A stretch of DNA of 64,000 nucleotides, taken from NCBI RefSeq assembly GCF_037040815.1, contig NZ_CP146232.1, positions 2,598,501 through 2,662,500 of the forward strand. Reading direction: 5' to 3'. The DNA comes from Pararoseomonas sp. SCSIO 73927 (GTDB lineage: Bacteria; Pseudomonadota; Alphaproteobacteria; Acetobacterales; Acetobacteraceae). Within the stretch, counting starts at the first letter, position 1; every line of letters starts with the position of its first letter. The position numbers were made by a program, and so were the translations under genes. The notes under the pieces are model-generated. The model searched no databases. It was not told the DNA's origin and was given only the letters and a program-made list of their open reading frames with translations. Positions 3,241-62,042 of the stretch are shown one piece after another.

Positions 3241-3858
3241 TCAGCTTGATCTGCTCAGGAGCAGCCTGAGCTTCGCCAACGCCACGTCCTGGCGCTCCTC
3301 GTAGTCGAGGGTTCCGGCGAACCGGCCCGCCGCGTCGAGCAGGAAGATGCTGGCGCTGTGGTCCATGGTGTAGCCGCCTCCCTCCAGGGGAACCCGGCGG
3401 TACTGCACCTGGAAGGACTCGGCCGCCCGGGCGACCTGGCGCTCCGTCCCCGACAGCCCGACGATGCGGTGGTCGAAGAGTGCCATGTACTCGGCCATCT
3501 TCGGCGGCGTGTCCCGCTCGTGGTCCACGCTGATCAGCAGCCAGTTGATGCGGTCGGCGTCCGCCCCGAGGGCATCGATGTGCTCCCCCATGCGGGCCAG
3601 CGTCGTCGGGCAGACGTCCGGGCAGAAGGTGAAGCCGAAGAACACGGCCGTCGGCTTGCCCAGGAAGTCGCGCTCGGTCACCGCCCGGCCCCGGTGGTCG
3701 GTGAGGAAGAACGGGCCGCCGATGGCGGGCAGGCGGGCCTCCCTCCCGCCGAGCGGGCCGTCCGTCACGAGCCATCCCGTCGCGGTGCCCACGACGAGGA
3801 AGCCCAGGACGGCGACGGCCGCCCACGCGGCACGCCTGATCAGCTTCAGGATCCGCAT
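3241..3858 (-). CDS. SCO1/SenC family copper-binding thioredoxin-like protein
   Basis: A 205-residue protein anchored by one N-terminal membrane helix (about residues 10-30) with a periplasmic thioredoxin fold. The copper ligands of the SCO family are present: Cys79 and Cys83 in FTFCPDVCP and His167 in TMDHSAS. SCO proteins deliver copper to the CuA centre of cytochrome oxidase or act in thiol redox chemistry. It is the last gene of the minus-strand metal operon, 37 bases after lspA, so a role in metal or envelope stress is also possible. No cytochrome-oxidase assembly gene is adjacent. Confidence 0.85.
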   Translation of the reverse strand: MRILKLIRRAAWAAVAVLGFLVVGTATGWLVTDGPLGGREARLPAIGGPFFLTDHRGRAVTERDFLGKPTAVFFGFTFCPDVCPTTLARMGEHIDALGADADRINWLLISVDHERDTPPKMAEYMALFDHRIVGLSGTERQVARAAESFQVQYRRVPLEGGGYTMDHSASIFLLDAAGRFAGTLDYEERQDVALAKLRLLLSRSS

Positions 3859-3895
3859 CCCCCTCAGGCCCCTATCCGCCCGCCGCAGTGGCCCA

Positions 3896-4429
3896 TCACC
3901 CGTCGGCGCCCGTCGTCGCGGCGGCCTTCCGCTCCGGCCGGAAGGAACCCAACAGCAGCAGGGCGACGCCGCACACGATACCGATGTCCGCCACGTTGAA
4001 GGTCGGCCAATGCCAGCCCGCGTAGTGGGCGTCGATGAAGTCCGTCACGGCGCCCCGTCGCAGGCGGTCCACCACGTTGCCGACGGCCCCGCCGATGACC
4101 AGGCCCAGCGACGTGGCCTCCAGACGCGACCGGGTTCGCCACATCCAGGCCAGCAGCCACGCCGTGATGACTACCGCGACGCCGACGAGGAGCCAGACAC
4201 CGGAGGCCGAGCCGCCCGAGAACATCCCGAAAGTGGCGCCGGTGTTGAAGCCGAGCCGCCAGTTCAGAAAAGGCATGACCGGGTGCGGCATGTGCGGCGG
4301 CCAGAGCGCGGAGAGCGCCCAGGCCTTGGTCACCTGGTCCAGCGCGAGGACGGCCGCCGCCGTGACGAGGCCGAGGCCCAAAATCCCGGTCGCGTGCCCA
4401 CTGCCGGTGCTGGCGTCGGTCCGGGTCAT
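3896..4429 (-). CDS. lspA: Lipoprotein signal peptidase LspA
   Basis: A 177-residue inner-membrane aspartyl peptidase with four predicted helices. The conserved blocks are visible: ALDQVTKAW near the N-terminus, FNTGATFGMF, and the two catalytic-aspartate boxes GNVVDRLRRG and VTDFIDAH. It cleaves signal peptides of prolipoproteins. The start is the ATG that overlaps the zntA stop codon (ATGA), showing tight translational coupling. An LspA-like gene next to a Zn/Cd/Pb P-type ATPase is a known arrangement in lead and cadmium resistance loci (for example pbr genes). This copy may therefore serve metal resistance rather than housekeeping. Confidence 0.92.
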   Translation of the reverse strand: MTRTDASTGSGHATGILGLGLVTAAAVLALDQVTKAWALSALWPPHMPHPVMPFLNWRLGFNTGATFGMFSGGSASGVWLLVGVAVVITAWLLAWMWRTRSRLEATSLGLVIGGAVGNVVDRLRRGAVTDFIDAHYAGWHWPTFNVADIGIVCGVALLLLGSFRPERKAAATTGADG

Positions 4430-6693
4430 GCCGCGGGCTTCCAGGCGAGCAGGCGGAGAGCGTTCAGCGTGACCAGGACGGTTGCCCCAGTGTCCGCCAT
4501 GATCGCGGGCCACAGGCCGGTGACGCCGATCAGGGTCGTGACCAGGAAGACCGCCTTGAGGCCGACCGCGATGGCCACGTTCGTCCTCACGTTCGCCATG
4601 GTGGAGCGCGACAGGCCGACCAGCTCCGCCACGCCCGTGACGCGGTCCTTGAGGACCGCGGCATCCGCCGTCTCCAGGGCAACGTCGGTGCCGCCGCCCA
4701 TGGCGACGCCCACGGAAGCGGCGGCCAGGGCCGGGGCGTCGTTGATGCCGTCGCCGACCATGACGACGGACCCCGCCGACCTGAGGGCGCCGATTTCCCG
4801 CAGCTTGTCGTGCGGCAGGAGTTCCGCCTTCACGTCGAGGCCGAGATCCCTGGCGATCGCCGCCCCGGTCCGGGCGTTGTCGCCCGTCAGCATGACCGAG
4901 CGGACGCCCAGCCTTGCCAGGGCCGCAACCCCGGCGGCGGCATCGCCCCGCGGCTCGTCCCGCAGGGCCAGCACCCCCGCGACAGCGCCATCGGCCAGGA
5001 CCACGATGGCCGTCTTGCCCTCGTTCTCCAGGCGGGTGATCGCGGCCACCAGGCCGCCCAGATCGGCTCCGGCCTCCGTGGCATGGCTCGGACTGCCGAC
5101 GCTGACCCGGCGCCCGTTGACGGTCGCGGTGACGCCCTTGCCGGGCACGGCGGCCTGATCGGAGACGGGCGGGGTCGCGATGCCACGGCTCTCGGCCATG
5201 ACCATGACCGCCTTCGCCAGGGGGTGGGACGACCCCTGCTCGACGCCCGCCGCCAGGGCCAGGAGGTCGGTCTCGGCCATGCCCCGGGCGGGCAGGATGT
5301 CCGTAACCCTGGGGCGGCCCTCCGTCAGCGTGCCCGTCTTGTCCAAGGCCACGACCTTCGCGGCGCCGATCTCCTCCAGCGCCGCGCCACCCTTGATGAG
5401 CAGGCCGCGCCGGGCGCCTGCGGACAGCCCGGAGGCCATGGCGGCGGGCACCGAGATGACCAGTGCGCAGGGACAGGCGATCAGGAGGATGGCCAGCCCG
5501 CGGTAGACGCTGGTCCACCAGTCCCATCCCAGCAGGAAGGGCGGCACGAGGATGACCAGGAGGGAGACGATCATCGCCCCCGGGGTCCACCAGTTCGAGA
5601 AGCGCTCGATGAAGCGCTGGGTCGGTGCCCGCGAGGCGGTGGCCTCCTCGACCATGCGGATGATGCGGGCGATGGTGTTGTCGGCCGCCGCCCGGGTGAC
5701 GCGGACGCGCAGGGCGCCGTCCGCGTTGATGGAACCCGCCACGACGGCCTCGCCCGGGCCGCGGGACACGGGCACGCTCTCTCCGGTCACCGGGCTTTCG
5801 TCGAGGGCGGACTGCCCCTCCTCGATGGTGCCGTCGCAGGGCACGCGGTCGCCGGGCCGGACCAGGACGAGTTCGCCGACGGAGAGGCGGTCGGAGGGAA
5901 CCCCCTCGGTCGAACCGTCGGCTCGCACACGGAGCGCCGTCCGAGGCATCAGGGTGGCCAGCGCCTTGATGCCCGCGCGAGCGCGCCCGGCCGCCACGTT
6001 CTCCAGCAGCTCGCCGAGGGCGAAGAGCAGGACCACCACGGCCGCCTCCTCGGCGGCTCCGATGATGGAGGCGCCGATGGCCGCCGTGACCATCAGGGTC
6101 TCGATGGAGAAGGGCGTCCCGGCCCGGGCCAGGGCAAAGGCGCGGCGGCCGAACGGCACCAGGGCCACGAGGGTCGCCGCCAGGAAGAGCGGGTAGGTCA
6201 GCCGGGCCGGGAGGGCCAGCGACAGGGCGTAGGCGCCGAGGACCAGGGCCCCGAGGAGCCAGACCAGGCGCGCCTTGCCCGTGGCGTACCAGGGCTTGGT
6301 CGCGTCCGCCGGGTCGTCGTGGTCGGCATGCGAATGGCCAAACGCACCGCCATGGCCGTGGTCATGTCCGGCGTGATCGTGGTCCTCGTCGCCGTGGTCG
6401 TGGCTAGCTTGGTCGTTGGCCGCATGCGGGGCGACCTTCGCGGCGGCGGTCGCGGGGAGTGGGCGGGGCGTGTAGCCAATGGCGGAGATGGTGCGCTCGA
6501 CGGCGGCCGGGTCAGTCTGGCCCGGCTCCAGACGCAGGGTCAGCCGCTCCGCCATCAGGTTCACCGCGACGTCCGAGACGCCGGGCAGGCGCTTCACGGC
6601 GCCCTCGACCTTGGCGACGCATGAGGCGCAGTCCATGCCCTCCACGCGCCAGGACACGGACTGCCCCTGGCTGCCGTTCCGTGTGCCGTCCAC
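4426..6693 (-). CDS. zntA: Zn/Cd/Pb-translocating P1B-type ATPase
   Basis: A 755-residue P1B-2 ATPase exporting Zn, Cd or Pb at the expense of ATP. In order: an N-terminal HMA domain with GMDCASC (Cys22, Cys25), a His/Asp-rich linker (HDHGDEDHDHAGHDHGHGG), eight membrane helices, the CPC motif (about residue 406), DKTGT with phospho-Asp451, the SSHPL nucleotide-domain motif and GDGINDAPAL. The late-helix Lys (GLKAVF, about 712) and Asp (MADTGAT, about 733) that define the ZntA group are both present. A longer reading to 6858 would overlap czcD. GTG at 6693 is chosen because AGGAG sits eight bases upstream. Confidence 0.95.
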   Translation of the reverse strand: MDGTRNGSQGQSVSWRVEGMDCASCVAKVEGAVKRLPGVSDVAVNLMAERLTLRLEPGQTDPAAVERTISAIGYTPRPLPATAAAKVAPHAANDQASHDHGDEDHDHAGHDHGHGGAFGHSHADHDDPADATKPWYATGKARLVWLLGALVLGAYALSLALPARLTYPLFLAATLVALVPFGRRAFALARAGTPFSIETLMVTAAIGASIIGAAEEAAVVVLLFALGELLENVAAGRARAGIKALATLMPRTALRVRADGSTEGVPSDRLSVGELVLVRPGDRVPCDGTIEEGQSALDESPVTGESVPVSRGPGEAVVAGSINADGALRVRVTRAAADNTIARIIRMVEEATASRAPTQRFIERFSNWWTPGAMIVSLLVILVPPFLLGWDWWTSVYRGLAILLIACPCALVISVPAAMASGLSAGARRGLLIKGGAALEEIGAAKVVALDKTGTLTEGRPRVTDILPARGMAETDLLALAAGVEQGSSHPLAKAVMVMAESRGIATPPVSDQAAVPGKGVTATVNGRRVSVGSPSHATEAGADLGGLVAAITRLENEGKTAIVVLADGAVAGVLALRDEPRGDAAAGVAALARLGVRSVMLTGDNARTGAAIARDLGLDVKAELLPHDKLREIGALRSAGSVVMVGDGINDAPALAAASVGVAMGGGTDVALETADAAVLKDRVTGVAELVGLSRSTMANVRTNVAIAVGLKAVFLVTTLIGVTGLWPAIMADTGATVLVTLNALRLLAWKPAA

Positions 6694-6718
6694 CGAGCGA
6701 TCTCCTGCTGACGGCCCG

Positions 6719-7723
6719 TCAGATAGGACCTCCAGTGGCTGGAGGTTCAAGGGGGAATTTGCGGGCGTCTCGGAGGAACGCTCGACAGGGGTGCCCGTCA
6801 GTGGCGGTGACCCGCTCCGGCGGCACCCCAGATGTCCGTCGTGATGCCCCGTGGGCACCTGCCAGTTCCGCCTGGACGGTCACGTGGGTGATGCCGAACC
6901 GCCCGGCGAGCATGGCGCCCAGGGCATCCTCAAGGCGGTCCTCCCGGGCCAGGGAAGCCTCCACCACGACGTGGGCCGACAAGGCCACCTTGCCGCTGGT
7001 CAGGGACCAGACGTGGAGATCGTGAATGTCCTGCACCCCCGGCGTCTCCCGCATCGCCGTCTCGACGGCGTCGAGGTCCAATCCGCGTGGCACGCTCTCC
7101 AGCAGCACGTCGATGACCTCGGACAGGAGGGTCCAGGTCCGGGGCAGCACCCAGAGCGCGATGCCGATGCCGAGCACGGCATCCACCCAGGTCCAGCCCG
7201 TGGTCCAGATGACCCCCGCCCCGGCGATGACGGCAACCGAACCAAGGAAGTCGCTCCAGACCTCCAGGTAGGCGCCCTTCACGTTCAGGCTGCCCTCGCT
7301 GCCGCCCGCGAGGAGGCGCATGGAGATCCAGTTCACCAGCAGGCCGAAGGCGGCGACGGCCAGCATGCCGACGGTGCCGACTTCGGCAGGCGCGCGGAAG
7401 CGCTGGTACGCCTCGTAGAGGATGTAGATCGCCACCAGGAACAGCAGCGAGGCGTTGAAGGCGGCCGCGAGGATCTCCAAGCGGTGGTAGCCCCAGGTCC
7501 GGCGCCTGTCCGCGGGACGGCGGCCGACCTGGATGGCGACGAGGGCCACGGCCAGCGCCAGCGCGTCCGTCAGCATGTGCGCCGCGTCAGACAGGAGCGC
7601 CAGGCTGTTGAAGGCGTAGGCGCCCGCGACCTCCACCAGCAGGAAGGAACCCGTCAGGGCAAGCGCCTTCGTCAGTGCCGCGGAGTTGGCGTTGCCCGCT
7701 CCGTGGTCGTGTCCCTGTCCCAT
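6719..7723 (-). CDS. czcD: Cation efflux protein, CzcD/ZitB subfamily of CDF
   Basis: A 334-residue CDF transporter with six helices and a His-containing N-terminus (GHDHGAG). Helix 2 has the metal motif HMLTD. In helix 5 the usual His-x3-Asp pair reads EVWSD, i.e. Glu replaces the His, a variation that could change metal preference. The chosen ATG at 7723 has GGAGG five bases upstream. The last 45 or so residues (from GAHGASRRTSG) are Arg/Pro-rich and unlike CzcD tails, so the 3' end may have been extended by a frameshift. It exports Zn, Co or Cd from the cytosol and lies between the czcCBA genes and zntA in one operon. Confidence 0.9.
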   Translation of the reverse strand: MGQGHDHGAGNANSAALTKALALTGSFLLVEVAGAYAFNSLALLSDAAHMLTDALALAVALVAIQVGRRPADRRRTWGYHRLEILAAAFNASLLFLVAIYILYEAYQRFRAPAEVGTVGMLAVAAFGLLVNWISMRLLAGGSEGSLNVKGAYLEVWSDFLGSVAVIAGAGVIWTTGWTWVDAVLGIGIALWVLPRTWTLLSEVIDVLLESVPRGLDLDAVETAMRETPGVQDIHDLHVWSLTSGKVALSAHVVVEASLAREDRLEDALGAMLAGRFGITHVTVQAELAGAHGASRRTSGVPPERVTATDGHPCRAFLRDARKFPLEPPATGGPI

Positions 7724-7767
7724 TCGGACCTCCGGATGCGAGCGGCTGACGCCCATGGACCGTTGTG

Positions 7768-7808
7768 GGCCCGGGCGCCCCGCGGGAGCCCGGCGGGGCG
7801 CCCGGGCC
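7768..7808. repeat. 16-bp perfect stem-loop between two cistrons
   Basis: GGCCCGGGCGCCCCGC at 7768-7783 pairs perfectly with 7793-7808 across a 9-base loop. It lies just after the stop of the small His-rich gene and 45 bases before czcD, inside the operon. No T-run follows on the minus strand, so it is more likely a pause, partial terminator or RNA-stabilising element than a full terminator. Confidence 0.7.
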
Positions 7809-37937: not shown

Positions 37938-38437
37938 CTATGCCAGACGGTCACGACCGAACATCCGCCAGGCGGCATCCCCCGTTGACCCTCATCAAGA
38001 CCGCCCCGGTCCGGCTCAAGGACGGTCGTCGGCCAGCAGGCGAAACCGCGCGGCATGTCGCGGGTGCCAAGGTCAATCCCTGCGTTGCTCCGCTGGTGCT
38101 TCGCAGTCACGGCATGGACAGCAGTCAGGCGCTCCTGCTCCTTCGAGGACGGCCGGACTCCCGGGACTGCCAAGCCGCCTCTCGTCGGAGCGGCCCTGGT
38201 CAGCAGGGATGGACCGACCGGGAGATCCCGGCTCCGGACTTGGCAGCGTCCGAAGGCGGCCTGCCTCCCGACGAAGCGGTGCAGCTCCGTCGCGAGCGGG
38301 ACGAGCAGGGGATCGCCGGAAGGCATGTCCTAGGCTAGCAGGTGTCCGACAGGTGTGAAATCCGCACCTCCGCACTGCAAGTGCCTTGTCGGCTTGGGGC
38401 GTACGGCAGGTTCGGCCTGCAGCGATCGTCCAGGTAC
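37938..38437. other. Gene-free stretch
   Basis: About 500 bases upstream of the decayed receiver gene. All frames give low-complexity Arg/Pro/Gly readings with no family motif. It should contain the promoter of the kinase pair, but none was resolved. Confidence 0.4.
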
Positions 38438-42914: not shown

Positions 42915-44420
42915 CTACCAGAAGCCCAGCAGCCGCCACCAGAGGGTTCCGAGCAGGGCGAATACCAGCAGCTCGCCGACGCACATCAGGAACCCCACCC
43001 GCCACCAGCTGCCCAGGGTGACGTAGCCGCTGCCGAAGATGATCGGCGACGTCCCGGTGGCGTAATGGGTGAGCGTCATCATGATGGACGACCCGGCCGC
43101 CATCATCAGCAGGAAGGGCGCGTGGTACTCGGGCGGCACCAGCTGCACGCCGACGGTGAGGAAGGCGAGCATCATCGCGCTGACATGTGCCGTGGTGCTG
43201 GCAAAGAGGTAGTGCGAGAAGACGAAGAGCAGCACCAGGAGCGCGGCGGCCGCCTCCCATCCCATGCCCGACGAGGCGATGCCGCTCCGCAGGGCTTCGG
43301 AGAACCACCCGATCACGCCAACCTTGTTCAGCTGCTCCGCCATCATCACCAGCGCGCCGAACCAGACCAGCGTGTCCCAGGCGCTCTTCTCCGAGAGCAC
43401 ATCGTCCCAATCGATGGTGCCGGTGATGATGAGGGCGAAGAGCCCCACGAAGGCCACGGCGGTCGGGTCCAGCGTGAAGGCGGGTCCGAGCAGCATGGCC
43501 GGGACGTTGGCCCAGAGGACCAGGAGCAGCGCGAAGGTGCCGATCATCACCTTCTCGCCTCCCGTCAGCGGCCCCATGCGCGCGAGCTCGCCGCGTGCGT
43601 ATTCCACCGCGCCCGGCGTGGACTTCACCTCGGGCGGGGACAGGAGGGCGATCGCGAGCGGCATCAGCGCGAGGCAGGCAAGGCCAGGGACAAACATGCA
43701 GGCCGCCCAGGTGGTCCAGGACAGCTGGAAGTTCCCGCCGGTCACCCGCGCCACATAGTCGACGACGAGGGGGTTGGGCGCGGTGGCGGTGACGAACAGG
43801 CCCGAGGTGATGGTGTTGGCGTGGATGTTCACCAGCGCGAGATAGGTGCCCATCTTCCGCTCGGTCCCGGCCGCAGGGTCCGAGCCGAATGCGGTCGCGA
43901 TCGACTTCATGATGGGGTGCACGATGCCGCCGCCGCGGGCGGTGTTGCTGGGGGTGAACGGCGCCAGCACCAGCTCGCAGACGGCCAGGCCGTAGCCGAT
44001 CCCGACGGTCCGGCGGCCGAGGAGCGAGATGAACAGCAGCCCGATGCGGCTGCCGAGCCCTGTCTTCTTGAGGCCTCGCGAGATCAGGATGGCCACCACG
44101 ATGAGCCAGATCAGCGGGTTGGAGAAGCTGGCAAGCGCGTCGGCGACGGCGCCCTTGGATGAGGTGGAGGTGACCTGGGACAGCGACACGATGACGATCG
44201 CCATCATAGCCATCACGCCGATGGGCATGACCTTGAGGATGATGGCCACGATGGTCGTCAGGAAGATGGCGACCAGCCCCCAGGCCTTGGGCGTCAGCCC
44301 CGCCGGGACCGGGACCGCCAGCAGCGCGAGGAGCACCAGGGTCGTGATGATGGCTGGCTTCAGCCGAAAGGGGACGGCGCCCTCGAAGTACCGGAGCGTC
44401 GCCCGGATGCGGTCGTACAT
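42915..44420 (-). CDS. DASS/SLC13-family dicarboxylate (anion) transporter
   Basis: A 501-residue permease with about 12-14 membrane segments. The two SLC13/CitT substrate motifs are visible: LAPFTPSNTARGGGIVHPIM and, in the second half, LTHYATGTSPIIFGSGYV. Members carry succinate, fumarate, tartrate or citrate, either by Na+ symport or exchange. It is encoded 76 bases after the NuoF-like gene, in the same direction as the flavoprotein operon, suggesting it supplies or removes the dicarboxylate that the flavoprotein acts on. Confidence 0.9.
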   Translation of the reverse strand: MYDRIRATLRYFEGAVPFRLKPAIITTLVLLALLAVPVPAGLTPKAWGLVAIFLTTIVAIILKVMPIGVMAMMAIVIVSLSQVTSTSSKGAVADALASFSNPLIWLIVVAILISRGLKKTGLGSRIGLLFISLLGRRTVGIGYGLAVCELVLAPFTPSNTARGGGIVHPIMKSIATAFGSDPAAGTERKMGTYLALVNIHANTITSGLFVTATAPNPLVVDYVARVTGGNFQLSWTTWAACMFVPGLACLALMPLAIALLSPPEVKSTPGAVEYARGELARMGPLTGGEKVMIGTFALLLVLWANVPAMLLGPAFTLDPTAVAFVGLFALIITGTIDWDDVLSEKSAWDTLVWFGALVMMAEQLNKVGVIGWFSEALRSGIASSGMGWEAAAALLVLLFVFSHYLFASTTAHVSAMMLAFLTVGVQLVPPEYHAPFLLMMAAGSSIMMTLTHYATGTSPIIFGSGYVTLGSWWRVGFLMCVGELLVFALLGTLWWRLLGFW

Positions 44421-44495
44421 CGCCTGTTCTCGCTGCTTGGCCGCGCGCGGCGGCCCGTTGTGTCCTGTGTCGCGGAAGGTCGCGGGGAGGGGGCG

Positions 44496-45737
44496 TCAGC
44501 GCTGCCCGAGCGCCCGCTCGTACTCGCCCCGGAAGGTGCGGAGGGAACTGGCCAGCACCGTCGCCGCGCCGTCCACGAGGCCGCACCGGCCGCTGCCCGG
44601 CAGGAGCTCCGCCAGGTTCTCCAGCGCCTCCAGGTCGCCGGGCCGCCCGGCGCCCCCCTCCAGCCGTTCCAGGATGCGGGACACCTGATGGGTCCCCACC
44701 TTGCAGGGCGGGCACTGGCCGCAGGAACTGGCGGCGAAGAAGGCCACGTACTCCGCCGTCTTGCGGAGGATGCTCGTCCCCTCTCCCACCACGATCATCG
44801 CCCCCGTGCCGAGGCGGGAGCCGCGGGCGCGCAGGCTGTCGAAGTCGAGCGCCACGTCGAGGTCGGCGGCGGTCAGCAGCGTGTTGGACGGCCCTCCGGT
44901 AAAGACCGCCTTGAAGGCCCGATCCGCCAGCATGCCGCCCCCGCAGCCGAAGACGAGGTCCCGCAGCGGGGTTCCCATCGGCAGCTCGTGCAGCCCCGGC
45001 CGCAGCACGTCGCCGGAGAGGGAGAAGAGCTTCGTGCCCGCCGCCCCGCCGAGACCCATGCCGCGATACCAGTCCGGCCCCTGGCGCAGGATGTGCGTCG
45101 CGTGGGCGAAGGTCTCGACGTTGTTCAGCAGGGTCGGCGCGCCATGCACCCCGGCCTCGGCCGGGAAGGGCGGCTTGAGCGACGGGAAGGGGAAGCCGCC
45201 CATGACGCTGGCGACCGCCGCCGTCTCCTCGCCGCCGACGTAGAGACCGGAGCTCTCGACGACCCCGATGCTGACTGCCCCGCCCAGCGCCCCCGCGAGC
45301 CGGGTCATCAGCGGATGCCCGCCCCAGGCGTCCACCGCAGCCCGGGTCGCAGCCACGGAGGCCGTCTCGCGCGGGTTCACGTACAGCGCGACGTTCGTCG
45401 CGCCGACCGCGAGCGCTCCGATCAACGCGCCTTCGATCACCTGGTGCGGCGTCCGGGACAGCAGGAAGCGGTCCTTGAAGGTGCCGGGCTCGTCCTCGTT
45501 GCCGTTGCAGACCACCCACTTGCCGCCCTCGGGCCGGGGCTGGGCGGCAACGGCGGACCACTTGCGGTGGGTCGGGAAGCCCGCACCCCCCAGGCCGCGC
45601 AGCCCGGCGGCCTCGATCGCGGGGATGATCGCGTCGGGGTCGGCCAGGGCACGGGACAGCCCGTCCCCGCCCCCGGCCGCCAGCCAGGCATCCAGGTCGG
45701 GGCCGACGCAGACCCTCTCGGCGGTCAGCACGGTCAC
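44496..45737 (-). CDS. NuoF-like NADH-binding flavo-iron-sulfur protein
   Basis: A 413-residue relative of complex I subunit NuoF. The FMN/NADH region has RGLGGAGFPTHRKW (about 47-60), CNGNEDEPGTFKDR (from Cys77), GGEETAAVASVMG and HGAPTLLNNVETFAH. The [4Fe-4S] site has SCGQCPPCKVGTH (about 338-350) and the fourth Cys in GRCGL (about 385). All NuoF cofactor ligands are kept, so it should oxidise NADH or reduce NAD+. There is no NuoE or NuoG partner. Its ATG overlaps the stop of the flavoprotein gene (ATGA), so the two proteins are probably made in equal amounts and form one complex. Confidence 0.88.
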   Translation of the reverse strand: MTVLTAERVCVGPDLDAWLAAGGGDGLSRALADPDAIIPAIEAAGLRGLGGAGFPTHRKWSAVAAQPRPEGGKWVVCNGNEDEPGTFKDRFLLSRTPHQVIEGALIGALAVGATNVALYVNPRETASVAATRAAVDAWGGHPLMTRLAGALGGAVSIGVVESSGLYVGGEETAAVASVMGGFPFPSLKPPFPAEAGVHGAPTLLNNVETFAHATHILRQGPDWYRGMGLGGAAGTKLFSLSGDVLRPGLHELPMGTPLRDLVFGCGGGMLADRAFKAVFTGGPSNTLLTAADLDVALDFDSLRARGSRLGTGAMIVVGEGTSILRKTAEYVAFFAASSCGQCPPCKVGTHQVSRILERLEGGAGRPGDLEALENLAELLPGSGRCGLVDGAATVLASSLRTFRGEYERALGQR

Positions 45738-47347
45738 GCTGCCCTCCCTCGCGCCGGTGCGATGTCGAAGTTGCCGTATGCGGGGAAGATGACCGGCGCT
45801 TTACGGCCGAGTGGCAGTCCCTGGACGATCAGGGCGCGCCTCCAGTCCGCGAGATGGGTCAGCCCGACATTGCGGGGGCGCTCGCCCCTGGCATCGGCGG
45901 CGGCGCTTGCCCCGGCGCGGCGCCCGAAGGCGACCAGCTCCAGCAGTGCGTTGCCCATCATGCGGTTGCGGCCGTGCAGCCCGCCCGTCACCTCGCCCGC
46001 GCAGAGCAGGCCGGGCACGACGGTCCGGCACGCCGGGTCGATCGCCACGCCCCCGTTCTGGTAGTGCAGGGTCGGGCGGACCAGGAGCGGCTCGGCCGCC
46101 GCGTCGATCCCGGCGCGCCGGGCGAGGTGCGTGAGCGTGACGAGGCTCCTGCCGAGGATGCCGGGCGTGGCCTGCTCCAGCGAGGGTGTGTCGAGGAAGA
46201 CGCCCGTGCACCCGTCCCGCTCCACCCCGCGTCCCTCGGCGATCTCCCGCAGGATGGCAGCGGCCACGACGTCGCGCGGCCGCAGCTCCTCCACGAAGCG
46301 ATGGCCCAGCGCGTTCACCAGGGCGGCACCGGAGGAGCGTGCGGCCTCGCTCACCAGCGCCCCTTCCAGGTGGCGCGGCCAGGCAATGCCCGTGGGGTGG
46401 TACTGGAAGCTGTCCACCTCCCGCAGCGGCGCGCCGAGGCGGTAGGCCAGCACCAGCCCGTCGGCCGTGGCACCGTAGTGGTTGGAGGTGGGGAAGCCCG
46501 CGACGTGGAGCCGTCCGGACCCACCGGTGGCGAGCACGGTCGCCCCCGAGCGCACCAGCACCGTGCGGCCGCGGCCGAGGTCCTGCAGCGCGGCCCCGGC
46601 GCAGCGGCCGCGGTCGTCCGTCAGCAGCTCCACCGCGGGGTGGCGGTCCAGGGTGACGATGCCCGGCTGCAGCAGGGTGGCCTCCCGCAGTGCCCGCATC
46701 AGCTCCAGCCCCGTGAAGTCGCGGTAGGAGAGCAGCCGCGCCGCGCTCGCGCCGCCGGGCGTCTTGCGCAGCAGCGTGCCGCCCATGCGCTGGGCGCCCT
46801 CCGCCAGGTCGAAGCTCATTCCCTCCTGGATCAGCCAGCGTATGGCGTCCGGCCCGTCCGAGACGAGGGCGGCGACGAGCGCCTTGTCGGCCGCGAAGTG
46901 GCCCGCCCGCAGAGTGTCCTCGAAGTGGCGCTGGAGGCTGTCCTCCGCTCCCACGGCGGCCTGGATGCCGCCCTCCGCCATGACGGTGTTGCTGTCCCCG
47001 ATCCGCAGCTTCGTGGCGAGCAGCACCCGTGCCCCGGCGCGGGCGGCCGTCAGCGCCGCCACGCAGCCCGCGCCGCCGCCGCCGATCACCAGTACGTCGG
47101 TCTCCAGCATCGGCGCACCGGCGATGTCCACGTCCTCAAGGGGCGAGTCTGCCTGAAGGAGGTCCGCCAGCTCCGCAGGGCAGGGGGACCCCGCGCTGGC
47201 CCCGGCGCGCAGCACGCGCATCCCCCCTGGCCGGTGGTCCGGGTGGAAGCCGCGCAGCAGTTCGGGAACGGCCAGCGCGCAGGCCTGCGGTGCGGCGGGC
47301 GCCGCGGCGCGCCAGGCATCGATCGCCCGGGCGTAGGGGATCCCCAT
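45734..47347 (-). CDS. Fumarate reductase/succinate dehydrogenase-type flavoprotein
   Basis: A 537-residue flavoprotein of the SdhA/FrdA/NadB family. An 80-residue N-terminal extension precedes the FAD motif VIGGGGAGCVAALTAARAG. Dicarboxylate and catalytic residues are kept: His317 (QYHPTG), Arg337 (SEAARSSG), His428 (LHYQNGG) and Arg462 (HGRNRMMGN). At the position of the covalent flavin His of SdhA/FrdA (RSHTVAAEGG) it has Asn120 (GDSNTVMAEGG), so FAD should be non-covalent. It should interconvert fumarate and succinate or close analogues. It is flanked by Fe-S and NuoF-like subunits and no membrane anchor, implying a soluble complex. Confidence 0.88.
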   Translation of the reverse strand: MGIPYARAIDAWRAAAPAAPQACALAVPELLRGFHPDHRPGGMRVLRAGASAGSPCPAELADLLQADSPLEDVDIAGAPMLETDVLVIGGGGAGCVAALTAARAGARVLLATKLRIGDSNTVMAEGGIQAAVGAEDSLQRHFEDTLRAGHFAADKALVAALVSDGPDAIRWLIQEGMSFDLAEGAQRMGGTLLRKTPGGASAARLLSYRDFTGLELMRALREATLLQPGIVTLDRHPAVELLTDDRGRCAGAALQDLGRGRTVLVRSGATVLATGGSGRLHVAGFPTSNHYGATADGLVLAYRLGAPLREVDSFQYHPTGIAWPRHLEGALVSEAARSSGAALVNALGHRFVEELRPRDVVAAAILREIAEGRGVERDGCTGVFLDTPSLEQATPGILGRSLVTLTHLARRAGIDAAAEPLLVRPTLHYQNGGVAIDPACRTVVPGLLCAGEVTGGLHGRNRMMGNALLELVAFGRRAGASAAADARGERPRNVGLTHLADWRRALIVQGLPLGRKAPVIFPAYGNFDIAPARGRAA

Positions 47348-47358
47348 CGGACGGGTCC

Positions 47359-48045
47359 TCACGGCGCCACCAGGGGGTTTGCGCCGGGCGCGTCGGGGTC
47401 GATGGGCTGCCGCCCCTCCTCGATCTCGTGGAGCCGCATGATCAGGTCCGACGGCCGTAGCGTCAGCGACGCCGTCATGCGCCGCACGAACTGCCCGAGA
47501 TGGGCGGGATCGATGTGCTCCGGGCAGGCGGCGACGCAGAGGTTGCACATCACGCAGTGGTCGAAGAGATCCGCCGCCGCGAGGGCCTGGCCTGCCGCGG
47601 CGAGGTTCACCATGCGCTGCACCTCGATGCCCTTGGGACAGGCGCGGTCGCACCCGCTGCAGTGGCGGCAGTTCTTCGCCTCGGGGAATACGGCATCGAT
47701 CCGGTCGATCGCGGTCCAGCTGTCGGTGAGGGCGCGCAGGTCGTAGGCGTGGGGACGGCTCGCCGGGAAGTGGTCGAGGAAGGAGACCTGCATGCCCGGC
47801 TCGGCGAGGGTCTCGCAGGCCAGGGCTGTGCAGGCCAGCCGCTCCCCCGCCCGGCGCACGAGGACCCGGCAGGCGCCACAGACGCCCTGCCCCATGCAGC
47901 CGACGTTCTCCGTCAGCGGCAGCCCGGCCCCGACCCAGGCCTGCAGCAGGGACGTCCTGACACCTGTCTCGATCGCATGGCCGTCGAAGACGAAGCGCAC
48001 AGGCTCCGCCAAGGTCGAGATGTCCGCCATTCCAGGAACCCCCAT
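47359..48045 (-). CDS. SdhB/FrdB-like iron-sulfur subunit with two [4Fe-4S] motifs
   Basis: A 228-residue electron-transfer protein. An N-terminal ferredoxin domain has Cys50, Cys56, Cys59 and Cys72 (GCMGQGVCGAC then RLACTALAC); the first spacing is five residues where SdhB has four. A C-terminal domain has two complete CxxCxxCxxxCP motifs, Cys126-136 (CRHCSGCDRACP) and Cys164-174 (CVMCNLCVAACP). It therefore carries two 4Fe clusters, as in thiol:fumarate reductase or HdrC-type subunits rather than SdhB with a 3Fe centre. It would wire the NuoF-like protein to the flavoprotein encoded 11 bases downstream. ATG at 48030 is an alternative start. Confidence 0.87.
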   Translation of the reverse strand: MGVPGMADISTLAEPVRFVFDGHAIETGVRTSLLQAWVGAGLPLTENVGCMGQGVCGACRVLVRRAGERLACTALACETLAEPGMQVSFLDHFPASRPHAYDLRALTDSWTAIDRIDAVFPEAKNCRHCSGCDRACPKGIEVQRMVNLAAAGQALAAADLFDHCVMCNLCVAACPEHIDPAHLGQFVRRMTASLTLRPSDLIMRLHEIEEGRQPIDPDAPGANPLVAP

Positions 48046-48098
48046 GATGGTGCCGCCCTCAGGCAGGGCCTTTGGAGCACCCTGGGCGGCATCCAGCC

Positions 48099-48112
48099 TT
48101 GATCTCGGTCAA
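48099..48112 (-). promoter_or_regulatory. FNR-type box upstream of the Fe-S/flavoprotein/NuoF operon
   Basis: TTGATCTCGGTCAA fits the FNR/ANR consensus TTGAT-N4-ATCAA with one mismatch. Its centre is 60 bases upstream of the first ATG. If it activates from -41.5, the transcript would start near 48064 with a 20-base leader. The same form occurs upstream of hemN, and an fnr gene is in the window. Confidence 0.6.
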
Positions 48113-48334
48113 ACCTTGGCCCGAGCAGCCTCGCTGCATGCGATCGGGCAGCCACGTCTGGCCGGAAACTGCCAGTCCGGTTCGGAAAGGTTCAGGCGGC
48201 AGGGCAGACGCTGCTTTCTCCTGACGCGACCTTGCCCAGCCTTCCCCAAGCTACTCAGCGGGGTAGTGTGGCCTGCATCATAGGTTAATGTGGGCTGTCT
48301 GCTGCGTCCCCTGGGCGCCGAATCCGGAGGGATC

Positions 48335-49366
48335 ATGAGCACACGCGCGCGCGTCATCGTCGTCGGCGCCTCCGCGGGTGGTGTGCCGAGCCTGCAGGCG
48401 CTGGTCGCGGGCCTTCCGGCCGATCTGGACGCCGCCGTGTTCGTCGTGCTCCATATCGGTCAATACTCCACAAGCAACCTGGCACGTATCCTGGAGCGCC
48501 ACGGCCCGCTGCGGGCCGCGCACGCGCGGGACGGCGAGGAGATCCGCCGGGGCCGGATCTACGTCGCCTCGCCCGATCACCACCTCCTGGTGGAGGGGAG
48601 CCGTGTCCTCGTGAAGCGCGGTCCCAAGGAAAACCGCTTCCGCCCTTCCATCGACGCCCTGTTCCGTTCGGCCGCCTATACCCACAAGGAAATGGCGATC
48701 GGCATCATCCTGTCGGGCCTGCTCAATGACGGCACCTCGGGGCTGTGGAGCATCAAGCGCTTCGGCGGGACCGCCATCGTGCAGGATCCGGCTGAGGCAG
48801 CCGTCGACAGCATGCCCCGCGCTGCTCTCGACGAGGTCGAGGTAGACTACGTGCTGCCAGCCGCCGAGATCGGATCGCTCGTCGCACGCCTGGTTCAGGA
48901 GCCGGTCAGCGCGGCCGTGCAGGTGCCGCAGGAGGTCTCCGAGCGCATGGAGACGGAGGTCGCCCTCTCTCGCGCCGAGAACGCCTTCCAGCGGGGGATC
49001 CTGAGGTTCGGTGAGCGGACGGCCTTCACCTGCCCCGAATGCCATGGAGCGCTGTCGATGATCGTGGAAGGACCGATCAGCCGGTTCCGCTGCCACACCG
49101 GTCATGGCTTCACGGCTGACGCGCTGCTGTCCGGCATCGCCGAGACGACCGAGGAGGCGCTCTGGAACGCGACCCGGGCCTTGGAGGAGGGGACGATGCT
49201 GCTCGACTCCATGGCCCAGCAGCTTGAAGAAGCGGGGAAGCCCGACGACGCGGCCCGGTTCCGCCAGTCGGCGCGCGAAGCGGAGCAGCGTGCGAAGGAC
49301 CTGCAACGTCATGCGACGGAGCACAACCTCACCGACAGATCCGGTTCGATAGAGCGGGCGGGCTGA
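48335..49366 (+). CDS. cheB: CheB-type protein-glutamate methylesterase with C-terminal zinc ribbon
   Basis: A 343-residue protein without a receiver domain. The methylesterase domain (about 1-190) has the catalytic triad Ser13 (VGASAGGV), His40 (VVLHIG) and Asp132 (GLLNDGTSG). After a linker, a zinc-ribbon-like segment carries CPECHGALS and RFRCHTGHGF (about 240-265), then a helical tail. It would deamidate or demethylate glutamates on a chemoreceptor-like partner. No cheR, cheA or receptor gene is near, so it may serve a non-chemotactic sensory system. ATG 48335 has GGAGG four bases upstream. Confidence 0.88.
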   Translation: MSTRARVIVVGASAGGVPSLQALVAGLPADLDAAVFVVLHIGQYSTSNLARILERHGPLRAAHARDGEEIRRGRIYVASPDHHLLVEGSRVLVKRGPKENRFRPSIDALFRSAAYTHKEMAIGIILSGLLNDGTSGLWSIKRFGGTAIVQDPAEAAVDSMPRAALDEVEVDYVLPAAEIGSLVARLVQEPVSAAVQVPQEVSERMETEVALSRAENAFQRGILRFGERTAFTCPECHGALSMIVEGPISRFRCHTGHGFTADALLSGIAETTEEALWNATRALEEGTMLLDSMAQQLEEAGKPDDAARFRQSAREAEQRAKDLQRHATEHNLTDRSGSIERAG

Positions 49367-61068: not shown

Positions 61069-61082
61069 TTGATCGAGGTCAA
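61069..61082 (-). promoter_or_regulatory. FNR-type box upstream of hemN
   Basis: TTGATCGAGGTCAA matches TTGAT-N4-ATCAA with one mismatch. Its centre lies exactly 41.5 bases upstream of the hemN ATG, the class II activation distance measured to a transcription start. That would make the hemN message leaderless unless translation starts further in. Confidence 0.65.
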
Positions 61083-61107: not shown

Positions 61108-61830
61108 TCAGGCCGCCTCGCTGCGCTCCTGCAGGCTCCCGCGGTCGCGGATGGTCACGGCGCGGCCGGAGGGCAGGTCGATGAGCCCGTCCCGTTTCAG
61201 CTTCGTCATCTGGCGGCTGACCGTCTCGATCGTCAGGCCCAGCACGTCGGCGATCTGGGCACGGGTCAGGGGCAGGTCGAAGGTGATCCCGCCCCCAGGC
61301 CGGGTACCCCCTTTCGCGAGGTGACCGGCCATCTCGAGCAGGAAGCTCGCCACCTTCTCCTCGGCTGACTTCCGCCCAAGCATCAGCATGCGCGCCCGCG
61401 CCTCGTCGAGCGCGGCCAGGGTGCGGCGGAGCAGCAGGCGCTCCATGCGGACGTGGTTCTCCAGCACCTCCTCGAAGGGCTTGCGTGGGAACACGCAGAG
61501 CTCGGCATCGGTCAGCGCCGTGACGCTGTGCTCCACCTCCTGCGCGAAGGGGCGGCCGACGAAGTCGGAGGGGTAGAGCAGGCCGACGATCTGCTCTCGC
61601 CCGTCCGCGGTGGAGGCGCTGAGCTTCAGCACGCCGGAGAGGAGGTTGGCGCAGAGCACGGCCTCTTCCCCCGCCCAGGCGAGGGTCTCGCCCCGGGCCA
61701 GCTCCCGCTTTCGGCCAAGCGTGTTGAGCGCGGACAGCTCCTCGTCGCTGAGGCTGCCGCAGAGGGTGCGATCGCGGACCATGCAGTCGGAACAGACCTG
61801 GGTGATGGCGGCGACCCTCCCCGTGACCAG
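61108..61830 (-). CDS. fnr: FNR-type oxygen-sensing transcriptional regulator
   Basis: A roughly 240-residue CRP/FNR regulator. N-terminal cysteines CSDCMVRDRTLC plus a fourth Cys in EAVLCANLLSG provide the four ligands of the oxygen-labile [4Fe-4S] cluster. The cyclic-nucleotide-type domain contains EQIVGLLYPSDFVGRPF; the C-terminal helix-turn-helix is LTRAQIADVLGLTIETVSRQ, with the ETVSRQ recognition element that reads TTGAT half-sites. No ATG, GTG or TTG fits upstream of the Cys cluster. CTG at 61830 is given as a provisional start. It is encoded between cydX and hemN. Confidence 0.9.
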   Translation of the reverse strand: MVTGRVAAITQVCSDCMVRDRTLCGSLSDEELSALNTLGRKRELARGETLAWAGEEAVLCANLLSGVLKLSASTADGREQIVGLLYPSDFVGRPFAQEVEHSVTALTDAELCVFPRKPFEEVLENHVRMERLLLRRTLAALDEARARMLMLGRKSAEEKVASFLLEMAGHLAKGGTRPGGGITFDLPLTRAQIADVLGLTIETVSRQMTKLKRDGLIDLPSGRAVTIRDRGSLQERSEAA

Positions 61831-61890
61831 GGCCCGAACATAGGGTGCCCGGGTCGGGAAAGGGACCGCTCTGTTTCGATGAGGGGCCTG

Positions 61891-61913
61891 CGCCGCCGGA
61901 ATGCCCGGCGGCG
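61891..61913 (-). terminator. Probable terminator hairpin after cydX
   Basis: CGCCGCCGG (61891-61899) pairs with CCGGCGGCG (61905-61913) around a five-base loop, 12 bases after the cydX stop on the minus strand. It separates cydABX from fnr. There is no T-tract. Confidence 0.55.
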
Positions 61914-61925
61914 TGGGGAGGGGGG

Positions 61926-62042
61926 TCAGGCGGCCGGGTGGTCCCGGTCGTCGGTGGGCAGGTGGAACTCGTGCCAGATGCCGTTCAGCACCCCGAAGGC
62001 GACGGCCAGGCCGAGGCCGAGGACCCAGGCGAAATACCACAT
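61926..62042 (-). CDS. cydX: Cytochrome bd oxidase small subunit CydX
   Basis: A 38-residue one-helix protein beginning MWYFAWVLGLGLAVAFGVLN and then GIWHEFHLPTD. It has the CydX hallmarks: an N-terminal M-W-Y-F-x-W, one membrane helix and an acidic tail. It stabilises the haem pocket of cytochrome bd. AAGGA lies upstream of ATG, and it starts 17 bases after the cydB stop. Confidence 0.88.
   Translation of the reverse strand: MWYFAWVLGLGLAVAFGVLNGIWHEFHLPTDDRDHPAA

Follow-up and report, generated by a model that had tools for sequence, protein, structure and literature searches.

A 64,000-nucleotide stretch of a Roseomonas-like genome (G000:C1:2598501-2662500; its close matches carry the name Roseomonas), called the window below, contains four genes for an iron-sulfur protein (FeS), a flavoprotein (Fp), a NuoF-like protein and a carrier of the DASS family. 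The question raised by this operon is whether its products form a single enzyme and, if so, what that enzyme reduces. Judged from the genes and their relatives, we consider it likely that the operon specifies a soluble three-subunit NADH:fumarate reductase together with a dicarboxylate carrier, for use at low oxygen. FeS, Fp and the NuoF-like protein would form one complex, in which NADH would give up its electrons to FMN in the NuoF-like subunit and these would pass from that subunit's [4Fe-4S] cluster through the FeS subunit to the FAD of Fp, where fumarate would be reduced to succinate. In the heterotroph that carries the window, such an enzyme would let fumarate serve as the acceptor for re-oxidising NADH at times of oxygen shortage.

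An earlier note on this DNA had described four same-strand genes in tight order. The open reading frames (ORFs) lie where it had placed them, with spacings of 11, -4 (an overlap of 4) and 75 bases, the last gap being one base shorter than the 76 given there. Pfam and NCBIfam agree, at the level of general families, with the protein classes that the note had assigned. When all NCBIfam models listed for FeS and for the NuoF-like protein, and the best 25 of 53 for Fp, were scored, the three enzyme subunits stayed below the cut-off of every one of these models.

Subunits of the predicted enzyme

Fp belongs to the Pfam class FAD_binding_2, and PF02910 was not found in it. In the alignment to SdhA (7d6v), Asn120 occupies the site of the FAD-binding histidine in 41 of 41 family members, and the FAD of Fp is presumably held non-covalently. 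The dicarboxylate-site residues of SdhA are matched by His317, Arg358, His428 and Arg462, which are unchanged in all 41 members. Fp also has an N-terminal extension of its own of about 80 residues. Its best NCBIfam score, among the best 25 of 53 models, was for TfrA (320.7 bits, cut-off 718); nadB gave 276.9 bits (cut-off 452.75) and the SdhA/FrdA model 269.2 bits (cut-off 567.3). Membership in NadB was rejected on its score, as was membership in TfrAB, for which FeS reached 23.6 bits with the TfrB model (cut-off 385), aligning to positions 53-178 of 488.

In FeS, Pfam recognises Fer4-type motifs, and similarity to SdhB/FrdB is weak: the SdhB model scored 30.1 bits (cut-off 228), and the nearest solved structure is Escherichia coli FrdB at E 1e-7. 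The predicted structure (pLDDT 86, pTM 0.75) yielded low TM-scores only. Cysteines 50/56/59/77 form a [2Fe-2S]-type motif, whereas 126/129/132/136 and 164/167/170/174 form two [4Fe-4S]-type CxxCxxCxxxC motifs, and all 12 cysteines are unchanged in the 31 sequences aligned. The [2Fe-2S]/[4Fe-4S]/[3Fe-4S] pattern of complex II is thus not found, the third motif being CxxCxxCxxxC in 31/31, and we infer that the third cluster is of the [4Fe-4S] rather than the [3Fe-4S] type. If FeS docks like FrdB, electrons would run from the [4Fe-4S] clusters to [2Fe-2S] and then to FAD; the reverse orientation is possible.

The NuoF-like protein contains the Pfam domains Complex1_51K and NADH_4Fe-4S, scores 358 bits with TIGR01959 (cut-off 558.65) and aligns to the core of both NuoF and HydB-type proteins. 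It carries the loop NGNEDEPGTFKD and a G(L/M)GG motif. These two features were counted in 58 NuoFs encoded beside an FeS-Fp pair (linked NuoFs), 8 orphan NuoFs of Nitrospira and 8 chosen complex I-type proteins. Within the N(G/A)NEDEP loop, Asn is present in 58/58 linked NuoFs at a site with Asp in 8/8 complex I-type proteins, and at the GRGG position Leu or Met is present in 58/58 versus Arg in the comparison proteins. The four cluster cysteines occur in 57 or 58 of the 58 linked NuoFs, one row being incomplete.

Neither nuoE nor nuoG, nor sdhB or sdhE, had a match in the window at E 1e-4 (one Nitrospirota query each). A scan of 39.5-51.1 kb for ORFs of at least 80 amino acids with at least two hydrophobic stretches returned the carrier only, and no haem-anchor candidate was seen there. 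These results bear out the earlier note, which had seen no haem anchor, NuoE or NuoG. Membership in complex II was rejected on Asn120, the third cysteine motif and the lack of an anchor candidate nearby.

Conserved linkage and reductive TCA neighbours

The contig scan found at least 80 loci, with 57 non-Nitrospirota and 23 Nitrospirota loci among the matches listed. The earlier note had proposed to check whether the three enzyme genes stay together in other genomes, and they do: in 55 of the 57 listed non-Nitrospirota loci Fp is flanked by FeS on its upstream and NuoF on its downstream side, all on one strand. The exceptions are L050, in which NuoF is present and the contig ends on the FeS side, and L052, which has neither gene. 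Listed hosts of the trio include Roseomonas, Comamonas, Cupriavidus, Paraburkholderia, Pseudomonas, Neisseria and Gallionella, as well as tubeworm and other animal symbionts, and, by a single contig each, an Acidimicrobiia metagenome-assembled genome (MAG; Actinomycetota), Chloroploca (Chloroflexota) and a Myxococcales MAG (Myxococcota). In the window's genus a close Fp was present in 7 of 15 genomes searched, always in the trio order (7/7). The linkage of the three genes exceeds chance. In a sample of 200 genomes from the window's phylum, a strict search (E 1e-135) detected the window's own linked NuoF only. FeS was found in 30 of these genomes (E 1e-15) and Fp in 31 (E 1e-150), both including the window's own, and none of the 20 regions fetched from the 30 other Fp carriers had NuoF beside the FeS-Fp pair. 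Two gammaproteobacterial MAGs carry a second, only distantly related flavoprotein (34% identity) just upstream of FeS-Fp-NuoF (L060 6665-8308, L065 1775-3457).

The gene order bears on the idea that the proteins are separate, co-transcribed activities and Fp an L-aspartate-oxidase-like enzyme. Some sources do use the name L-aspartate oxidase for Fp, and NadB also lacks covalent FAD. This idea is nevertheless extremely improbable given the nadB score below its cut-off, the frequent neighbourhood of reductive tricarboxylic acid (TCA) cycle genes described below, and the FeS-Fp-NuoF order that is kept across several classes and phyla.

Phylogenetic trees of NuoF and Fp were obtained by quick searches, with SH-aLRT (approximate likelihood-ratio test) support only and midpoint roots. 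The NuoF tree comprised 58 rows, namely 31 linked NuoFs (from 29 of the 57 scan loci and two Roseomonas loci), 26 Nitrospirota sequences and the complex I copy of the window's genome. A branch with support 100 divided all 31 linked NuoFs from the other rows, the complex I-type ones included. Membership in complex I was rejected on this placement, the TIGR01959 score and the lack of a nuoE or nuoG match. In the Fp tree (74 rows: 32 NuoF-linked, 8 of the 23 Nitrospirota, 17 of the 20 sucCD loci and 17 outgroup), a support of 100 separates the 57 family rows from the 17 SdhA/NadB-like ones. Within the family there are two sides, one NuoF-linked (32/32, support 94) and the other sucCD-linked (support 88).

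The neighbours of the sucCD-linked side indicate what the FeS-Fp pair may do. Here acn, icd, sucC, sucD, korA and korB were named by their matches, and ATP-citrate lyase is our reading of succinyl-CoA-synthetase-like plus citryl-CoA-lyase-like matches. In all 23 listed Nitrospirota loci sucC is the next recognised gene after Fp, and upstream lie ATP-citrate lyase (15/23), aconitase (16/23) and isocitrate dehydrogenase (16/23), several contigs being too short to judge upstream gene content. In L070 and L078 the lyase is present and aconitase and isocitrate dehydrogenase are not between; in L091 aconitase is present and the other two are not within its stretch. In the window's phylum, all 20 of the 20 fetched regions have sucC and sucD after Fp, and 19 of them also have korA there (L186 ends early). 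By similarity, L170 (3842-13540) carries mdh, fumA in two parts (fumAB), FeS, Fp, sucCD and korAB in a row, which by the same token would take oxaloacetate all the way to 2-oxoglutarate, the complete reductive branch. In Nitrospirota and these other bacteria, the FeS-Fp core would catalyse the fumarate step in the reductive direction.

Such genes also occur near the 57 listed NuoF-linked loci: korAB adjoins 13, all of Gallionella type or from symbionts, sucCD adjoins one, and class I fumarase four (Neisseria). The gene context of the relatives therefore points to fumarate as the substrate, as the earlier note had supposed. In five of these loci an approximately 820-residue protein with no NCBIfam match at E 1e-30 is encoded after FeS-Fp-NuoF-korAB (L043 15752-18223, also L044, L046, L051 and L067).

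KorAB requires reduced ferredoxin, and its presence beside 13 of the loci would suit electron bifurcation or confurcation, in which the FMN, as in HydB or NfnB, would send part of the electrons of NADH to fumarate and part to ferredoxin. Among solved structures, the NuoF-like protein does match bifurcating subunits named HydB, NfnB or HoxF best (E 1e-86 to 5e-80), but complex I NuoF chains score nearly equally (8e9g, E 3e-84). In alignment, the 413 residues of the protein correspond to the NuoF-like core of most of the bifurcating chains (584-630 residues), Pfam gives no ferredoxin domain beyond the NuoF one, and the single nuoE query found no match in the window. Most HydB-type chains have extra domains that the protein lacks, and for this reason we regard bifurcation as very unlikely.

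The carrier, probable low-oxygen control and genomic setting

The carrier belongs to the Na_sulph_symp/DASS family and is assigned to DASS by TIGR00785 (356.3 bits, cut-off 198.6). Among solved structures it is closest to DiT1 and DiT2.1 of chloroplasts and to the bacterial DASS proteins 6wu1/6wtw. DiT1 and the LaINDY type are DASS exchangers. In view of these nearest structures it is plausible that the carrier imports a C4 acid from outside in exchange for succinate. Identity to the window's carrier is 75-83% at five of the listed loci, 52-55% at four and 35-37% at seven, and the carrier genes sit on differing sides and strands of the enzyme genes. These classes and arrangements suggest that carriers joined the enzyme genes repeatedly and not as one inherited block.

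The three identity classes could also mean that the substrates differ, and the carrier is the sole recognised metabolic neighbour in the window. The complex might then reduce another unsaturated dicarboxylate, such as a methylated fumarate or a plant or soil acid brought in by the carrier, with fumarate as substrate only in the reductive TCA relatives; urocanate reductase has the same fold. We hold this to be improbable, since the catalytic residues are the same in the reductive TCA-linked and the NuoF-linked Fp (41/41) and since NuoF-linked loci themselves include those with class I fumarase or korAB. Fumarate remains the more likely substrate.

The features of the locus are collected in Table 1. 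The coordinate 48112, at which the earlier note had ended the operon, is the edge of an FNR-type palindrome that it had left unmentioned. After one copy had been noticed by eye, the pattern TTGAYNNNNRTCAA was searched and matched three times in the window (expected 0.01). Only four perfect matches occur in the whole genome (5.59 Mb), all between C1:2636485 and 2663399. The chance of four random sites falling within 27 kb of 5.59 Mb is about 4e-7, although the pattern had been picked with one copy already in view. Across the genome the reversed control pattern occurs about equally often (3 per strand); the argument therefore rests on how the boxes cluster and on what lies beside them, not on their number.

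Table 1. Genes of the operon and FNR-type boxes with neighbouring genes (window positions unless marked C1)
Feature	Position	Strand	Remarks
FeS subunit gene	48045-47359	-	228 amino acids; ORF
Flavoprotein (Fp) gene	47347-45734	-	537 amino acids; ORF
NuoF-like gene	45737-44496	-	413 amino acids; ORF
DASS carrier gene	44420-42915	-	501 amino acids; ORF
FNR/FixK-type box TTGACCGAGATCAA	48099-48112	-	53 bases upstream of FeS start
Second FNR-type box	61069-61082	-	upstream of hemN
FnrL-like Crp/Fnr regulator gene	61108-61935	-	beside hemN; NF045989 FnrL 229.6 bits, cut-off 300
FNR-type box	37985-37998		no clear target
FNR-type box	genome C1:2663386-2663399		upstream of cydA, next to divergent CydDC-like ABC gene

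The genes on the hemN side and cydB were named by model matches; cydA and CydDC are our own reading. The four boxes, which span 27 kb, would make up a low-oxygen island with the fnrL-like gene, hemN, cydAB and the operon. The FnrL-like regulator likely binds the boxes and would turn the operon on at low oxygen. The low-oxygen role that the earlier note had proposed gains support from the operon's box, which is of the kind shared with hemN and cydAB of the same genome.

Two observations on relatives limit the proposal. The box is mostly absent, being found with at most one mismatch in only 7 of 61 NuoF-linked upstream stretches, and the carrier gene, whose linkage to the enzyme genes the earlier note had made part of the system, is frequent but optional, occurring within the fetched stretch of 16 of the 57 listed non-Nitrospirota loci at E 1e-20, or of 17 if a fragment matched at E 1e-8 is counted. 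A stricter scan (TTGAT-N4-ATCAA, 250 bases upstream, at most one mismatch) gave 5/61 versus 1.2% in shuffles, the kinship of the loci being uncorrected, and 0/22 in Nitrospirota. A family-wide FNR regulon was rejected because of the low box count, and we confine the proposed control by oxygen to the genome that holds the window.

Elsewhere that genome encodes an SdhA (L158), in which the SHT motif is of the usual kind, and a single further NuoF match (37% identity) with an NCDESEPG loop; the operon is thus an addition to complexes I and II. Scans for promoters and terminators in 42.6-48.3 kb detected nothing, and four ORFs between 41.0 and 42.9 kb matched no Pfam family. A CheB-type methylesterase gene (48290-49366) is divergent from the operon.

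Nitrospira and comparison with known systems

None of the 23 listed Nitrospirota loci has NuoF beside the FeS-Fp pair. In 8/8 Nitrospirota genomes searched (of the 23 loci), the NuoF most like that of the window is a same-strand neighbour of mdh, no more than about 1.2 kb away. These mdh-linked NuoFs fall nearest the linked clade, via a deep midpoint-rooted branch and with weak placement; L141 (Nitrospirota, long branch) groups beside the eight orphans. We tentatively suggest that FeS-Fp is a portable soluble fumarate-reductase core with no NCBIfam model of its own, which would work in the reductive direction of the TCA cycle in Nitrospirota and in other bacteria with sucCD, would be NADH-driven through the mdh-linked NuoF in Nitrospira, and may have been joined once by a dedicated NuoF, the resulting enzyme then spreading to iron oxidisers, symbionts of animals and heterotrophs living at low oxygen. 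This suggestion is weakened by the Nitrospira orphans, in which neither signature of the linked NuoFs is present (Gly or Ser for Asn, and Arg in GRGG, 8/8). If it is true, fumarate reduction in Nitrospira would be driven by NADH rather than by quinol.

A passage of a transcriptome study of Nitrospira moscoviensis reports high transcription of the flavoprotein NITMOv2_0695, annotated as SdhA or NadB, and of a single nuoF (PMC6606698). The likeness to the window lies in a flavoprotein of uncertain name and a stand-alone nuoF; the difference is that in that passage the two are not joined as one enzyme. NITMOv2_0695 may well belong to the Fp family of the window, and the flavoprotein and the single nuoF may form one enzyme, which would give both a testable identity. 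In the Nitrospirota genome G047, which has the FeS-Fp pair as well, L152 carries SdhB, an SdhE/HdrB-like protein, malate dehydrogenase and NuoF in a row (3425-7773); it is possible that this row encodes a further NADH-linked fumarate reductase of a different kind.

Bacteria usually couple the reduction of fumarate to membrane quinols. A compact soluble version driven by NADH would, if the proposal is true, be practically irreversible; it would act as a redox valve for aerobes at low oxygen and would pull the reductive TCA cycle forward, and it would offer a small three-gene enzyme for succinate production.

The predicted enzyme shares with complex II and quinol:fumarate reductase (SdhABCD, FrdABCD) the fold and catalytic residues of Fp and an FrdB-like FeS subunit. 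It differs from them in Asn at the FAD-His site, the unmatched PF02910, a second [4Fe-4S]-type motif replacing [3Fe-4S], the lack of a membrane-anchor candidate and the NuoF-like partner. TfrA is the top NCBIfam model for Fp, but Fp remains far under its cut-off, and FeS, with 228 residues, matches TfrB only partially. A soluble NADH-dependent fumarate reductase (EC 1.3.1.6) was reportedly described by Miura et al. in 2008 (J Bacteriol 190:7170) from the reductive TCA cycle of Hydrogenobacter thermophilus; its FrdABCDE (KEGG K18556-K18560) is said to consist of five subunits with genes far apart in the genome. A passage of PMC11508158 gives the FrdABCDE subunit list. By description, not by sequence, the window's predicted enzyme resembles it in soluble, NADH-driven fumarate reduction and differs in having three linked genes instead of five dispersed subunits. 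Putative tfrAB genes are mentioned for reductive TCA clusters of tubeworm symbionts in PMC6315080, and the name NADH-dependent fumarate reductase is used for vent-snail symbionts in a passage of PMC7580541 that gives no gene details. Searches of open-licence papers gave no match for a gene trio with a dedicated NuoF that shares its core with reductive TCA operons. Soluble NADH-dependent fumarate reduction as such is already known; what appears to be new is its three-gene, widespread form with a dedicated NuoF and a core probably shared with the reductive TCA cycle.

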